Of a stretch of DNA of 64,000 nucleotides, positions 20,039-43,688 are shown in pieces (positions within the stretch are counted from its first letter, which is position 1; every line of letters starts with the position of its first letter). The notes below the pieces were generated by a model. It did not search any database, had not been told where the DNA came from, and saw only the letters and a program-made list of their open reading frames with translations. Position numbers and translations under genes: made by a program. Source of the stretch: Sulfolobus acidocaldarius SUSAZ (GTDB taxonomy: Archaea > Thermoproteota > Thermoprotei_A > Sulfolobales > Sulfolobaceae); the NCBI GenBank assembly GCA_000508305.1, contig CP006977.1:1210621-1274620 (forward strand). The letters are read 5' to 3'.

Positions 20039-21448
20039 ATGGATCATGTATTAGCGGAGTATTTTGTAGGTCCAGTGAAGGTTAGATTAACAAGAAGTAA
20101 GGGAATCTGTAATTATGAAATAGAGGAACCGTCTTTTTCAGACTTTGAAGAGTCGTTAAAGGAAAAAGTGTTGTCTGAAATATATTATTCAAAATCCACT
20201 GATTTTGAGGATAAGGTTCTCCTTAGACTTAAGGAATTAGGAGTTAATGACGACAATGTGGAGAAAATTCTATATAGTATAAAGAAGCAAATTCTATATA
20301 ACGAAATTACTCCGTTATTATTAGATCCAGACATAGAAGAAATAGAATGTTTAGGATATGGAAGTCCTATTACGGTTGTACACAGGAAGTTTCCAGAGTG
20401 TATAAGATTTTACACAAATATCAAGCTTAATGATGAAGAAACTGTGGTAAGAATAATAGAAAAGTTAGCTAGCAAAGCCAATAAGAGTGTTAATATTGCT
20501 AGACCATATGTAGAGTTTTCATTGCCCGAGGGTCATAGGGTAGCAGCGACTATATCTAAAGAAATCTCTTTACCGGGATCAACTTTTGATATCCGTAAAT
20601 TTCCATTAAAACCTCTAAACATTTTGGAAGTTATCAATTCCTCTATGTTAAATGAGCTGATAACTGCATATTTATGGTTACTATTAGAGTATAGGCCTTT
20701 TATTATAATATTGGGTCCAACGGGGTCTGGGAAAACTACATTATTAAATGCTTTACTTAATTTGGTAAATCCACATTATAAGATTTTGACTATAGAAGAT
20801 ACTTCAGAGATTAGTCTTCTTAACAAAAATTGGGTTAGATTTATAGCAAGATCAACACTACTTTCTGAGTTTGAAATATCTATAAGTGATCTTGCAAAGC
20901 TCGCATTACGATATAGACCTGATTACATGATAATAGGTGAGGTGAGAGGAAAAGAAATAGAGGCTCTTGTACATGCAGCAGCGTCAGGTCACGGTTCCAT
21001 CACCACATTTCACGGTTCTAGACCTATAGATGCCGTTACAAGAATCATTGATTTATTATCAGGAGATTTAGGTAAGTTATTCCTGCAAACTATATGGAAC
21101 TTCATAATAGTCGGAAATAGGAAGGAGGGAAATAAAACAGTGAGATCAGTTCTAGATATCTACGAGATAATAAATAAAGGTTCTAAGAAAATTACGTTCA
21201 AAAAAATATTTGAATGGTCTTATCAGAACAATAACTTTACTCCTCAAAATATCAGTGAAATTATAAAGAGATCTTATAGATTGAAGAAAATTAAAGAAAT
21301 ATATAATGTAGATGTGGAGTCTGAACTAACTAGAAGGCTTGATTTTCTCAAAAGGTTAAAGGAGAACGGAATTCGAGACAGTGAATCAATACAGGGTAGC
21401 TTATATCAATTCTATTTTGGTGATCAGGTTGAAAATATTAGCATGTGA
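20039..21448 (+). CDS. upsE: UpsE, secretion ATPase of UV-inducible pili
   Basis: A type II/IV secretion-family hexameric ATPase of 469 residues that powers pilin assembly at the cytoplasmic face of the membrane. It contains Walker A GPTGSGKTTLL (lysine ~232), Asp-box residues after TIEDTSEI, Walker B MIIGEVRGKE, and the His-box segment AASGHGSITTFHGS. An open frame continues 17 codons upstream to TTG 19988, but a TATA box lies between, so I use ATG 20039. It is partner to the membrane protein UpsF encoded immediately downstream with an overlap. Confidence 0.92.
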   Translation: MDHVLAEYFVGPVKVRLTRSKGICNYEIEEPSFSDFEESLKEKVLSEIYYSKSTDFEDKVLLRLKELGVNDDNVEKILYSIKKQILYNEITPLLLDPDIEEIECLGYGSPITVVHRKFPECIRFYTNIKLNDEETVVRIIEKLASKANKSVNIARPYVEFSLPEGHRVAATISKEISLPGSTFDIRKFPLKPLNILEVINSSMLNELITAYLWLLLEYRPFIIILGPTGSGKTTLLNALLNLVNPHYKILTIEDTSEISLLNKNWVRFIARSTLLSEFEISISDLAKLALRYRPDYMIIGEVRGKEIEALVHAAASGHGSITTFHGSRPIDAVTRIIDLLSGDLGKLFLQTIWNFIIVGNRKEGNKTVRSVLDIYEIINKGSKKITFKKIFEWSYQNNNFTPQNISEIIKRSYRLKKIKEIYNVDVESELTRRLDFLKRLKENGIRDSESIQGSLYQFYFGDQVENISM

Positions 21449-34000: not shown

Positions 34001-34795
34001 ATGGAAAACTGGTATGCAGAGATTATTACGATAGGAAATGAGATTTTGAGTGGAAAGACAATAAACACGAATGCTTCCCATATTGCAAGGAGAATTCTCT
34101 CGTTAGGGTATGTAGTGAGAAGAATTACCACGGTGATGGACGACATAGAAGAAATATCACTAGTGTTTAAGGAAGCTATAAACAGGAAACCTAAACTCAT
34201 AATTTCCACAGGTGGATTAGGTCCCACTTACGATGATAAAACTAGCGAAGGACTTGCATTGGCATTAGGAGTCAGTTTTGAAATAAATAAAGATGCCTAC
34301 GAAATGATAGTGGAAAAGTACAAGAAACGTGGACTTCCTTTAACTGAAGAAAGAGTCAAGATGGCTAAAATGCCTGCTGGTGCCACTCCTGTAAGGAACG
34401 ATGAAGGAATAGCCCCAGGTATATATATTCTTCATAAAGATATAGAAATATTAGCTACACCTGGAGTTCCGAGAGAAATGGAAAATGTCCTAGAAAATTT
34501 TATTAGACATCATCTTAAAAACAGACCTAATATTTCTTATTACGAAAACTCATTTTTATTGTTAGGAGTAATGGAATCTACCATTGCGCCTTATGTAAAA
34601 GAACTTGTTAAAAAATATAATTTATACATAAAGACTCATCCAAGGAGTAAAGAGATGGATAAGCCCGAGTTAGAAGTCCAAGTAGCAGGTAGTAGTACTG
34701 ATAAAGAGGAAATTATAAGAATAGTGAATGAATGTATTAATGAATTAAAACAAATAGGAACTAGACTAGGTGGTAGAGTACAGGAAATTACGTAG
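34001..34795 (+). CDS. CinA/MoaB-like molybdopterin-binding domain protein
   Basis: A 264-residue protein whose first ~170 residues are the MoCF-binding (CinA N-terminal) domain: [23 protein letters not shown] and [19 protein letters not shown] are its signatures. CinA proteins hydrolyse NAD or ADP-ribose derivatives; the fold is shared with molybdopterin adenylyltransferases. The C-terminal deamidase domain of bacterial CinA is absent. A TATA-like tataaat (33972-33978) is ~29 nt from ATG 34001, so the mRNA is probably leaderless. Its end overlaps the hydrolase gene by 30 nt. Confidence 0.82.
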
Positions 34796-35542
34796 TTCAT
34801 TGTTTAAAAGTTCAGGAGCTTCAAAGTTTATAAAATGTCCAAATCCTTCAATAATAGTCAATTTTGATTTTTTTAGTCCTTTACTGAATATTGTAGCGTT
34901 TTGCGCATATTCGTCTTCGCTTCCGTAAATTATTAAGGTAGGTACGTCTATTTTATCTAGGTCCCTGGAATAGTCTCGCGCTTTTAACAATCCTTCCACT
35001 GAATACTTATAACCTACTGGATTGTTTTCCATATAAACACCTAGTATATCTCGCCATATCCTTTCATCCCTTTCAATAGTTTTAGGAAATTGATTTATTG
35101 ATCTTCTATATTCAGCTAGCCCTCTCATCCCAAAATTCAATGCAATTCTAACATATTTTTCGTATAAATCTGGTTTTGGTGCTTTATAAAGCGCTCCTAT
35201 CAGCACTAGTTTATCTATGTTATTTTTTGTGGAGTACTCCAGTGCAATTATACTTCCTAATGAATGTCCAACTAGAATAGGATCTTTTATGTTTTCTTCC
35301 TCCAATAACTCTCTTAGATCGTTAGCATGATCTTCTATATAGTACGTTGATACAGGAGACGACGATCTTCCATGTCCACGTAAGTCATAGACTATAGTTC
35401 TACTCTTTAAGGCTGGACTTACGTATTTCCAACTATTTATAGAACCGGCTAAATGATGTATTAAAACTATTGCTGAGCCTACGTTTTCAGGATTCTTTAT
35501 TTCATAGTATAATCGTATCCCATTACTTAAAGTCCTTAAAAT
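34766..35542 (-). CDS. Alpha/beta hydrolase; apparent ATT start behind a Shine-Dalgarno in the pheT stop
   Basis: The frame directly after the pheT stop codon encodes a complete alpha/beta hydrolase. It reads [21 protein letters not shown] (oxyanion loop), [11 protein letters not shown], the nucleophile elbow VGHSLGS, an acid in YGSEDEYA and the catalytic His in GFGHFINFE. No ATG, GTG or TTG occurs in this frame before TTG 35305, which would delete the first ~80 residues of the fold. The best start is ATT 35542, placed 5 nt after GGTGAT (minus strand, 35553-35548). Either a rare AUU start or a start-codon mutation is implied. The substrate is unknown. Confidence 0.7.
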
Positions 35543-35548
35543 ACTATA

Positions 35549-37177
35549 TCACCGTTTTACTAAGCTATCTAGGTAAATCTCACTTATTACAACTGGAAAT
35601 TCTATTTCAAGTTCCTCTAACAGGACCGGATTTATCTCGCCAATTACTCCTATTTCAACACTTTTACTTGTATCAATGATCTTTGCCCCTCTTCCAGGTA
35701 TAAACATATAGTCTAAGTACGTCTTGTAGGTTGGTTCTATCCTAAGGCTCATTAATATTTGATGTACTCGGGACTGCAAGTCCTCATAGTTTACTTTACT
35801 ATTCATTATTCCATATACCGCTCTGAGAGAGTTCTTGTAACCAGTGTCGGTTTGCTTATCTTTTATCACCACATCCCCTATTTCAAAAACATAAACAGGC
35901 ATTATTGCATGCTGGTTATATTTTAGAAAGTTAAGTAAAGTGGGTATCAATGAATTTCTCACAGCATTGTACTCTACTGTTACTGGATTAACTATACTTA
36001 CATATTCGTTTCTTAGCCTCTTATCATTAGACAAAATAAATGTAAATATTTCACTGAATCCTGCTCCTATACTTAAATCCCTAAGTGTTCTTATTAGCTC
36101 AGTTTCCCCCGATAATTTACCTGTAGCTTTTATGGCATAATCCTTTGGTGACAATTTATCATAACCTATGGTCATTGCTATTTCTTCTACTAAATCTATC
36201 TGGGAGAGAATATCTACTCTATAAGGCGGAATTGTGACCTCTACAACGTTATTTAAGACCTTAGTATCAAATCTAGCCATTCTGAGATACTTTTCTATTT
36301 CATTTGGACTCAAATTCATTCCTAGATTTTTGGAAATATAATCTGCTGATACACTTACTGTGTACCTTCTTAGTAGGGGTGAAAACTCAAACTTGAATGG
36401 TGAAATAAAATTCAGCAGTTCTATTTTACCACCCATTTCAGCGAGATCTGTTACCAGTATATCAAGAGTTGAAGATACCGCCTCAAATGACGTTCCAGTA
36501 ACATCTATGAATATATTTCTAGTTTTTTCATCTATACGGGTCTTATCACTATTTATTATTGGTGGTATACTTAGCACATCACCATTTTCTTCCACTATTG
36601 CTGGGCTTAATCCGTCGTAAATTGAGATGTCCCCATACTCTCTACCTTGGGGAGTTTGTTCTATCACTTCTTTTATTGTCATAAGTTTAGACTGATTTAG
36701 GGGTACGAATTTATAGTCAAGTGGTAGTGGTTTATAATATATCTTAGTGGACGTAATTTTTTCTAGATCATGTATTCCTATTGCAACCTTTTTTCTCTTT
36801 CTACCTACTGTAATATGTAACTTTTCCTGAAACTGAATAAGCTCTCGTAAGCTCTCATCATCCAACTTTATGTCCTTCACTATTCCAGCTACTGCATAAG
36901 GTCTACTTTTTACCTCCTTTACCTCGAAAGAGTATATACTTTGTTTTATGTTATATTTAGGCTCTCCTAATTCTTTACCTAAGATGCCCTTTGCCGCTCT
37001 TATAATACCGTAAGGGAAAAATAAATCAGGTCTATCATTGTTTACTTCTATTTCCACGTGGTCAGCATCTATCGGCTTAACTTCAGACTTAAGTTTAAAC
37101 AGTAGTTCTTCTAACTCATGATCATCTATTTTTAAGTTATTTATTAAGGTCCATTTATAAGAGATTATGGTTGGCAT
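35549..37177 (-). CDS. pheT: Phenylalanyl-tRNA synthetase beta subunit
   Basis: A 542-residue archaeal-type PheRS beta chain. It has the B1 domain at the N-terminus, B3/B4 (about 85-260), the B5 domain (RYTVSVSADYISKNLGMNL, metal-binding DLVEEIAMTIGYD) and a catalytic-like B6/B7 domain near residues 350-540. It lacks the N-terminal extensions of bacterial subunits, as usual in archaea. It forms an alpha2-beta2 enzyme with the upstream pheS. Its ATG follows pheS by 2 nt, with a GGTGAGG ribosome site inside the pheS end. Its own stop is embedded in GGTGAT, the ribosome site for the hydrolase gene. Confidence 0.93.
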   Translation of the reverse strand: MPTIISYKWTLINNLKIDDHELEELLFKLKSEVKPIDADHVEIEVNNDRPDLFFPYGIIRAAKGILGKELGEPKYNIKQSIYSFEVKEVKSRPYAVAGIVKDIKLDDESLRELIQFQEKLHITVGRKRKKVAIGIHDLEKITSTKIYYKPLPLDYKFVPLNQSKLMTIKEVIEQTPQGREYGDISIYDGLSPAIVEENGDVLSIPPIINSDKTRIDEKTRNIFIDVTGTSFEAVSSTLDILVTDLAEMGGKIELLNFISPFKFEFSPLLRRYTVSVSADYISKNLGMNLSPNEIEKYLRMARFDTKVLNNVVEVTIPPYRVDILSQIDLVEEIAMTIGYDKLSPKDYAIKATGKLSGETELIRTLRDLSIGAGFSEIFTFILSNDKRLRNEYVSIVNPVTVEYNAVRNSLIPTLLNFLKYNQHAIMPVYVFEIGDVVIKDKQTDTGYKNSLRAVYGIMNSKVNYEDLQSRVHQILMSLRIEPTYKTYLDYMFIPGRGAKIIDTSKSVEIGVIGEINPVLLEELEIEFPVVISEIYLDSLVKR

Positions 37178-37179
37178 AT

Positions 37180-38577
37180 CTACAACCTCACCTTCATTTT
37201 TCTTAAGAAATCTATATCATTTGCATATAATAACCGTATATCTTTCAAACCAAATAATAGCATAGCTAATCTATCAATTCCAATTCCCCAGGCTCCTGCA
37301 TTTGCATCTATGTCCATTGCTTTTAGTATTTCTGGTCTTAATAATCCTGCTCCACTCATTTCCACCCATCCTAAGCCTTCAATTTTACCGTAGACTTCAA
37401 CACTTGGCTCTGTGAAGGGGAAATAACCAGGTTTGAATTTAATCTCTTTTATGCCTATTTTATAGAATATTTCCCTTAATATTCCTAATAAATCTGTGAA
37501 ACTGAATTCCTTTTGGATTATAACTCCATCTAACTGATGGAATTCGATAAGGTGTGTGGCGTCTATCGAATCGGGTCTAAACACTTTGCCTAATGAAAAT
37601 CCCTTAAAAGGTACGCTAGGTCTACTACTTAATATTCTCGCTGTAACTGCAGTAGTCTGGCTCCTTAACACTAGTCTTTTAGCTATTTGTGGATCCCAAG
37701 AATATTTCCATCCCTTCTCATGCATTTCCTTTATTTCCTTCAGTAACCTCTCGTCATCGATCTTTCCCAACCCATCTACTCTAAAACTATCATGAATTTC
37801 TCTAGCCGGATGATCCTGGGCTTGAAATAATAGATCAAAGTTATAGAGTTCCATTTCTATATAACCTCCGTTTACTTCAGTAAAACCTAACTCTTTCATA
37901 ACATCTTTTAACTTCTCTATGAAATCTCTGAAGAAGTGTTTCTTTGCTAGAGGAAAATATGGTGGAAGAGCTTCTACGTTGTATTCTCTTATCTTATACT
38001 TTTTCCAGTCTTTACTTCTCAACAATTCTGAGGTAAGTTGGGTAATATAATTCTGCTCCTCAAACTCTTCCTTGAGTAATGTTATTTCGAGTTTGGACTC
38101 TTCTTTTCTCGTTATTAACTTTCTAGATAATAATTCTTGCAAGACTTTTTCATCTGCGGACTCTGGTTTCAGTAGTGCCTCTTTCTCAGTCGAAAATGTG
38201 TAGTTTGAAGTATTCGGTATAACTCTGTTCTGGTCTATTTTTACAAGATTTTTCTTCCTTGCCCAAGAAATCGCTATCTCTAAATCTTTTCCCAACTTAT
38301 TTTTTAGTTCTTCAACTAGAGACGGTTGCCCGTTTAATTCTTTTAATAGAATTTCTTCAGGGAAACCTTCCTTAAGCCTCTTCTTACCCTCTTCTGTAAG
38401 TTCAAACCTTATAATTTTCCTCTCTCCTACTTTAACATAACCCTTTTCCTCAAGTAGCTTAGCTAAACTAAAAATTGAGGAAAGTGGTAAACCTAATTCT
38501 TTGCTGATTTCCTCTGCATTTGCTTTTTTCTTAAGCTTTAGGTAAGAAAGTATTTTTATTTCATTCTCGCTTAGCAT
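37180..38577 (-). CDS. pheS: Phenylalanyl-tRNA synthetase alpha subunit
   Basis: A 465-residue class II synthetase subunit that activates phenylalanine. N-terminal winged-helix tRNA-binding domains (SENEIKILSYLKLKKKANAEEISKELGL and another around 50-160) precede the catalytic core. Motif 2 is the FSLGKVFRPDSIDATHLIEFHQLDG region, and the C-terminal GAWGIGIDRLAMLLFGL is motif 3. I use ATG 38577 rather than GTG 38592, since the ATG is 1 nt after the upstream hydrolase stop. It is part of a four-gene operon with the metallo-beta-lactamase-fold gene, pheT and the alpha/beta hydrolase. Confidence 0.93.
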   Translation of the reverse strand: MLSENEIKILSYLKLKKKANAEEISKELGLPLSSIFSLAKLLEEKGYVKVGERKIIRFELTEEGKKRLKEGFPEEILLKELNGQPSLVEELKNKLGKDLEIAISWARKKNLVKIDQNRVIPNTSNYTFSTEKEALLKPESADEKVLQELLSRKLITRKEESKLEITLLKEEFEEQNYITQLTSELLRSKDWKKYKIREYNVEALPPYFPLAKKHFFRDFIEKLKDVMKELGFTEVNGGYIEMELYNFDLLFQAQDHPAREIHDSFRVDGLGKIDDERLLKEIKEMHEKGWKYSWDPQIAKRLVLRSQTTAVTARILSSRPSVPFKGFSLGKVFRPDSIDATHLIEFHQLDGVIIQKEFSFTDLLGILREIFYKIGIKEIKFKPGYFPFTEPSVEVYGKIEGLGWVEMSGAGLLRPEILKAMDIDANAGAWGIGIDRLAMLLFGLKDIRLLYANDIDFLRKMKVRL

Positions 38578-38578
38578 C

Positions 38579-39262
38579 TTATAACTCCACACTCTGACCT
38601 GGCTTCAACACTAATGCCCTATACCCTCTTTTACTAACTTCCTTCACGAAGTCATCAGGGTTAACTTTGATTAGGTCCCATGTATTGAAATGTATTGGTA
38701 TAGCGTATTTCTTAGGTTTAATCATATCTACCGCAAGGGAAGCCTGATACGGATCCATAGTGAATCTTCCACCAATAGGAAGTAATGCATAATCAGGCTT
38801 GAAAACTTCTCCTATAAGTTTCATGTCCTCAAATAACCCAGTATCTCCTGCATGATAAACCGTTACATTCTCTCCACTTATAATAGCTCCTGAAGGATCA
38901 CTGTGTTCACTAGAGTGAACAGCTTTAGTTAAAGCTAGTTTTAGTCCATCAAAATCTATAAACCCACCAACATTAGCTGGTATGAATCTACCCATATCGA
39001 TTTTGTATTCGTTTGATAAATACACTTCAAGATCGAATGTGGCAAATAATGAGGCTTTAGGATTCATTTTAAGTAATTCTACTGCATCTCCTAAGTGGTC
39101 GTAATGGTCATGTGTCACCACAATTAAATCTACGTTGTTATTAAAAGAATCAAGTTTTACTGGACTTAATGGATTGTCTTTTATCATGGGATCGATCAAA
39201 ACGCGTTTTTTATTTATCAAAAGTTCAACTGCTGCATGTCCTAACCATCTTAGTTGTGGCAT
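38579..39262 (-). CDS. UPF0173 metal-dependent hydrolase (UlaG-like metallo-beta-lactamase fold)
   Basis: A 227-residue metallo-beta-lactamase-superfamily protein. It begins [11 protein letters not shown], then [10 protein letters not shown] (the HxHxDH zinc site), [10 protein letters not shown] and a C-terminal PIHFNTW histidine. This set is typical of UPF0173/UlaG-type hydrolases, which act on cyclic or phosphorylated small molecules; the archaeal substrate is unknown. It heads the pheS-pheT operon. It is divergent from map (52 nt between starts), so regulation may be shared with translation and protein-maturation genes. Confidence 0.83.
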
Positions 39263-43008: not shown

Positions 43009-43688
43009 TAAGGTTAATTTTAACAGATGTAGATGGAACTCTGACCTTTGATAGGGATACATACAATATAGATCTTGACGCCGTAGACCTACTGAGGAAA
43101 GTTGAAAAGAAGGGCATTAAAGTGGGTCTTGTTAGTGGTAACTCTTATCCTGTCTTAAGGGCGCTATACACTTATTTTGGATTTAATGGTGGGATTGTTG
43201 CGGAAAATGGGTGTATAGTTTATTTTCATAACCAATTGAAAGAAGTTTGTGAAAGAGTTGACAGGAATTTAATATCGGAATTTGAAAATAAGTTTGGGGT
43301 TAAGGGAAGCTGGCAAAATCGATTCAAAGTATGCGATTTCAGCTTTTACCCGCCTATACTTAAAGACGAAATGGTAAGATGGGCATTAGATAAAGGTTTA
43401 TACATAAAGACCAGTGGATATGCGGTACACATTTCAAAATCAAAACGTGGTAAGGCTGAGGGAGTTAGGGAATTAATTAAAATGCATGGTTTAGATAAGG
43501 CTGAAGTGGTAGGGATAGGGGATTCTAGCACTGATATAGAATTTCTTGAAGAAGTAGGTATTAGGGTTGTCGTGGGGAATGCAGATGAAAGTCTCAAAAG
43601 TATAGGGGATTTTGTAATGCGTGAAAAGAGTGGAAAAGCTGTAGTAGAATTTATTAAAAAAGTTATTACAGGTGAAATTAATGAGTAA
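43005..43688 (+). CDS. Phosphoglycolate phosphatase, archaeal HAD type
   Basis: A 227-residue HAD-superfamily phosphatase (Cof/IIB cap type). It starts at TTG 43005 with [12 protein letters not shown] (nucleophile D8, acid D10), then [14 protein letters not shown] (motif II), a cap with FYPPILKD, and [14 protein letters not shown] (motif IV). It closely follows archaeal phosphoglycolate phosphatases, which clear 2-phosphoglycolate formed during DNA repair or metabolism. It overlaps the HD hydrolase by 4 nt and the first bases of gltX by 8 nt, forming a compact operon. Confidence 0.85.

Follow-up and report, generated by a model that had tools for sequence, protein, structure and literature searches.

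The alpha/beta-hydrolase gene that lies behind pheT in Sulfolobus acidocaldarius SUSAZ is very probably translated from an AUU codon (35542-35540), which lies behind a GGUGAU Shine-Dalgarno (SD) sequence and would have arisen separately in two clades of Sulfolobaceae. The gene was found in a window of 64,000 nucleotides, the whole stretch of DNA analysed here, which comes from a genome of 2,061,920 bases (G000). We compared it with other Sulfolobaceae genomes, including a second Sulfolobus genome of 2,225,959 bases (G001), presumably that of S. acidocaldarius DSM 639. The features discussed below are as follows.

34001..34795, plus strand: molybdopterin-binding/CinA-like ORF, convergent, named by inspection only
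34766..35542, minus strand: alpha/beta hydrolase (PF00561, E 3.8e-26; model pLDDT 95.6)
34837-34835, minus strand: His236 of the predicted triad, invariant in 25 orthologs, role taken from the family
34915-34913, minus strand: Asp210 of the predicted triad, invariant in 25 orthologs, role taken from the family
35261..35263, minus strand: Ser94 of GHSLG, predicted nucleophile, invariant in 25 orthologs, role taken from the family
35303..35305, minus strand: TTG, first canonical in-frame codon, codon 80, internal
35540..35542, minus strand: ATT, putative initiation codon, aligned with TTG (G009), ATG (G017) and ATT (G001)
35548..35553, minus strand: GGTGAT, SD-type, overlapping the pheT stop, with a spacer typical for the genome
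35549..37177, minus strand: pheT (phenylalanyl-tRNA synthetase beta subunit), an identity given by the original prediction that fits the pheS-like ORF upstream
37180-38592: pheS-like ORF upstream of pheT

The hydrolase frame contains 258 codons from ATT to a TAG stop (34768-34766), and the CinA-like ORF overlaps its 3' end by 30 bases. On the minus strand, the pheT TGA (35551-35549) is followed by TAT AGT and then by ATT, which is in the same frame as pheT with this single TGA between them. The original prediction stated that the hydrolase frame follows the pheT TGA in phase and has no ATG, GTG or TTG until the TTG at 35305. The sequence agrees: from the ATT on, no such codon was found in frame before this TTG. 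It was also correct that the TGA is part of GGTGAT (35553-35548), and the spacings used for comparison hold as well (GGTGAT, 4 nt and TTG at 21419 in upsF; GGTGA, 5 nt and ATG at 43671 in gltX). Measured from GGTGA, the spacer before the ATT is 6 nt. Canonical starts of the genome most often have spacers of 5-6 nt as well (20 of 30); the hydrolase ATT is spaced from its SD as in canonical genes. On the other hand, the SD motif alone carries no weight since it occurs at chance frequency in the window, both for GGTGAT (24 observed vs 22 expected) and for GGTGA-N6-ATT (2 observed vs 2.45 expected); the weight lies in the comparison with relatives.

Orthologs of the hydrolase were detected in 25 of 31 Sulfolobaceae species, and start columns were numbered in codons back from an invariant HHLAG motif. 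At codon -28, both Sulfolobus genomes (G000 and G001) have ATT, G017 has ATG and G009 has TTG (sister-like genus). In genus g6, which we take to be Saccharolobus, the corresponding codon is -25: two species have ATG CCN TTY (G030 and G026), three have ATT CCN TTY (G021, G015 and G024) and one has ATC CCA TTT (G028). A TAA stands immediately 5' of the ATT in G021, so no upstream start can serve in this species. G024 and G028 have an in-frame GTG three codons upstream of the ATT or ATC, a possible alternative start. In the remaining genera, the start column or its vicinity holds ATG, GTG or TTG. Initiation at AUU is best supported by this exact alignment of the canonical starts of relatives with the ATT/ATC codons. 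As in AUU genes of the infC type, AUU or AUC occupies the orthologous start column where no canonical codon is available.

On a maximum-likelihood tree, the start codon must have switched twice between the canonical type and AUH (AUU, AUC or AUA). Because both switches are forced by well-supported branches, the simplest explanation is that ATG or TTG gave way to AUH once in Sulfolobus and once in a single Saccharolobus-like clade. The AUU start, which was one of the options in the original prediction, is favored because some orthologs carry ATG or TTG in this very column and because those of another genus have AUU or AUC there. It is based on sequence, conservation, position and recurrence, from which we infer initiation in vivo.

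Another option was that an ATG had been lost by recent mutation or that the sequence contains an error, in which case the gene might be poorly expressed or dead. ATT differs from ATG in the third base only, as such an event would require. However, ATT is common to two species, AUH occurs again, independently, in four species of another genus, and the hydrolase frame and catalytic residues are intact. With the change present in six genomes, a sequencing error is very unlikely; ATG in related strains together with evidence of an error was not found, the nearest relative likewise having ATT. We consider the loss of a start improbable.

The properties of the protein bear on the position of its N-terminus. 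Its PF00561 score of 92.7 bits (E 3.8e-26) far exceeds the Pfam cut-off of 25.8, which assigns it to the alpha/beta hydrolase fold, and the expected Ser, Asp and His (Ser94, Asp210 and His236) are invariant among the 25 orthologs. The best PDB matches of the predicted structure (pLDDT 95.6) are 5a62 from Nitrososphaera gargensis, the esterase 4uhh and the enol-lactonase 2xua, which have the same fold (TM-score about 0.9) and the same GHSxG nucleophile motif, Asp and His. However, identity to them is 23-25%, and the score for the PcaD equivalog TIGR02427 (3-oxoadipate enol-lactonase) is far below its cut-off (102.4 vs 255.85 bits).

The first strand of the model is predicted to begin at residue 2. 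Before codon 80 lie 19 of the 44 residues that are invariant among the 25 orthologs. In those g6 species that lack a start ATG, dN/dS over codons 2-41 is 0.05-0.16 where estimable, and the N-terminal hydrolase codons in g6 are under purifying selection. Between the two Sulfolobus genomes, codons 1-79 differ by one synonymous and three non-synonymous changes, too few for an estimate of N-terminal selection. Synonymous changes between these genomes number 1 in 53 sites in the first 79 codons (35303-35542) and 14 in 116 in the rest, which might reflect extra constraint on start-proximal codons or chance.

It is very doubtful that the TTG at 35305 is the true start, with the upstream part untranslated or a decaying pseudogene. 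Although it is the first canonical codon in frame, a start there would cost the protein its HHLAG and DLRGHG motifs, those 19 invariant residues and the first strands, and according to the model the product would be without the first part of the fold. Moreover, the frame has remained intact in two Sulfolobus species and also in four species of g6, where it is under purifying selection.

Equally little credence can be given to readthrough of the pheT UGA, which would make the hydrolase a C-terminal extension of PheT. The two frames are in phase across a single TGA in both Sulfolobus genomes. In other genera, however, the end of pheT lies in another frame or reaches into the start of the hydrolase, or several stops separate the two, and readthrough is contradicted since this relation is not conserved; a conserved in-phase stop, as expected for programmed readthrough, was not found among the genera. 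Most hydrolase orthologs have their own ATG or TTG. An in-frame TGA recurs before leuS and homoserine dehydrogenase, and it results from the spacing of 6 nt after GGTGA.

Finally, a start at an out-of-frame canonical codon, with the ribosome shifting at once as the ftsY pattern described below suggests, is hardly credible for the hydrolase, as no ATG, GTG or TTG occurs in any frame 3-11 nt past GGTGA and the canonical codon of orthologs falls exactly on the ATT codon.

The ftsY gene, which runs on the minus strand of G000 from 1207119, about 3.5 kb before the window, is a separate puzzle. In 30 species, no canonical in-frame codon was found at its conserved start site, except in five species of g10, which we take to be Metallosphaera; four of these five have a GTG two codons upstream, adjoining the SD. 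The SD-spaced codon is TGT, followed by TTY and then GAY or GAG, in 29 of the 30 species. One base upstream of the TGT is a TTG or CTG, and G002 has CGT with ACG upstream. The pattern suggests either that translation begins at UUG/CUG and shifts by +1 straight away at UUU UGA or UUU CGA, which would yield MFD[KR]LKKAF, or that it begins at UGU.

For the hydrolase, we propose that the GGUGAU overlapping the end of pheT would place the 30S subunit and that initiator Met-tRNA would accept AUU with a third-position mismatch. The efficiency of AUU would probably be below that of AUG, with a lower yield. Ribosomes terminating pheT a few bases upstream, through coupling, and the SD may offset the weak codon. 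The hydrolase gene would be one of a wider set of Sulfolobaceae genes that appear to start with AUU, AUA or AUC, and some with CUG or ACG, behind a well-spaced GGTGA.

The start of leuS (leucyl-tRNA synthetase) was read in 30 Sulfolobaceae species. At 6 nt past GGTGA, Sulfolobus and g4 (presumably Sulfurisphaera) have ATT, the seven g6 species all have ATA, three species of g3 have ATC, and g5 and g8 have ATG. ATT is also the likely start in g2, g11 and g10, and the g10 genes have an in-frame TTG or GTG inside the SD. All changes of the putative leuS start codon are in the third base only.

Similar cases were observed in other genes. In fen1 (flap endonuclease), ATA is present where the MGVD N-terminus needs Met in four g6 species (L120:10862-11917 and orthologs in G021, G026 and G030), and the deposited S. 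solfataricus FEN1 chain 2izo_A matches the frame from residue 8 only. CTG occupies the start column of an adenylyltransferase-like gene (329430 region of G026, plus strand; orthologs in G030 and G015) and of a gene for a 145-aa protein on the minus strand of G015, and ACG that of a gatB-like gene (G015, plus strand, 201552). These CTG and ACG columns have ATG or TTG in a relative and a well-spaced GGTGA. A 600-residue initiation-factor-like protein with a GHVDHGK motif, probably aIF5B, has ATT 6 nt past GGTGA in all four sampled g6 genomes (G030 from 122899, plus strand; orthologs in G015, G021 and G026). An ATG or GTG abuts the SD in three of them, and none is nearby in G030. If an initiation factor did start with AUU, this would be reminiscent of infC in bacteria.

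To search for further non-canonical starts, we sampled 400 kb each from G000, G001, G015, G021, G026 and G030 and looked for conserved proteins with an N-terminal part encoded upstream of every canonical start. Among 206 testable ORFs of G000, the hydrolase, leuS and homoserine dehydrogenase each have ATT exactly 6 nt past GGTGA. A PDCD5-like gene of this genome has ATA at the same distance, and a protein with a GGGIAGL motif begins with ATC ATC in G000, G001 and G030. About 2% of testable G000 genes are affected, a value that covers only cases with the next canonical codon far downstream. Where a conserved ORF of G000 has GGTGA at its 5' end, the start codon is canonical in 28 cases, AUH in 4 and neither in 5; taken apart from comparative support, one or two of the 4 AUH codons could be due to chance. 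In homoserine dehydrogenase, the ATG of orthologs aligns with an ATA two codons downstream of the ATT, suggesting ATT or ATA as the start, neither of which is canonical. Start columns supported by an SD and without a nearby canonical codon numbered 16, led by the near-cognates CTG, ACG and ATA (three each), a sample too small to carry much statistical weight. In comparisons of close relatives, many initial hits of the screen were rejected, being conserved DNA upstream of a gene, truncated genes or probable small RNAs.

Among canonical genes, the SD-led start of Sulfolobus alba (AGGTGG-TTTAA-ATG, PMC11627041) has the same type of SD and a spacer of 5-6 nt as in the hydrolase, which differs in its AUU start codon. 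The closest bacterial parallels are infC, which encodes IF3 and starts with AUU or AUC, and sigR, which starts with GUC (PMC5472188). Both have a non-canonical codon at a conserved start that is overlooked by gene callers, and both starts are sensitive to IF3. The infC start, like that of the hydrolase, differs from AUG in the third base only. On the other hand, the hydrolase is archaeal, with aIF1 in place of IF3, and is known here from sequence; its type of start recurs over unrelated genes. As its product is an enzyme, the hydrolase gene cannot be autoregulated in the manner of infC. The AUH starts described here would be infC-like, yet they occur in archaea and recur in housekeeping genes that are unrelated to one another. 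Against initiation at AUU, S. solfataricus aIF1 is reported, as cited in PMC6237735, to disfavor non-canonical starts. If so, AUH genes should be sensitive to initiation fidelity, as infC and sigR are to IF3.

Two archaeal reviews give only AUG, GUG and UUG as start codons or report no non-canonical initiation. A study of 36 prokaryotic groups found one AUG-to-AUU switch among 61,358 ancestral AUG starts, a count limited by annotation since AUU is rarely allowed by gene callers (PMC5622118), and another comparative study accepted annotated AUA, AUU and AUC starts (PMC5397173). In the open-access literature, to which our search was mostly confined, no description of AUU, AUA or AUC starts in Sulfolobus or other Sulfolobaceae was found.

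Several essential Sulfolobaceae genes seem to start like the hydrolase gene, and standard gene finders probably misplace protein starts in this family. That AUH is kept family-wide in leuS, as against the rarity of such switches in PMC5622118, gives rise to a testable hypothesis, namely that weak starts are selected for. A tentative and rather speculative extension is that near-cognate starts (AUU, AUA, AUC, CUG and ACG; in leuS, fen1 and possibly aIF5B) form a class maintained across Sulfolobaceae for translational control set by aIF1, an archaeal counterpart of IF3/infC. If these starts are real, incorrect start annotations would affect roughly a few percent of the genes of model archaea, essential ones included, and archaeal start-codon selection would be looser than reviews state.
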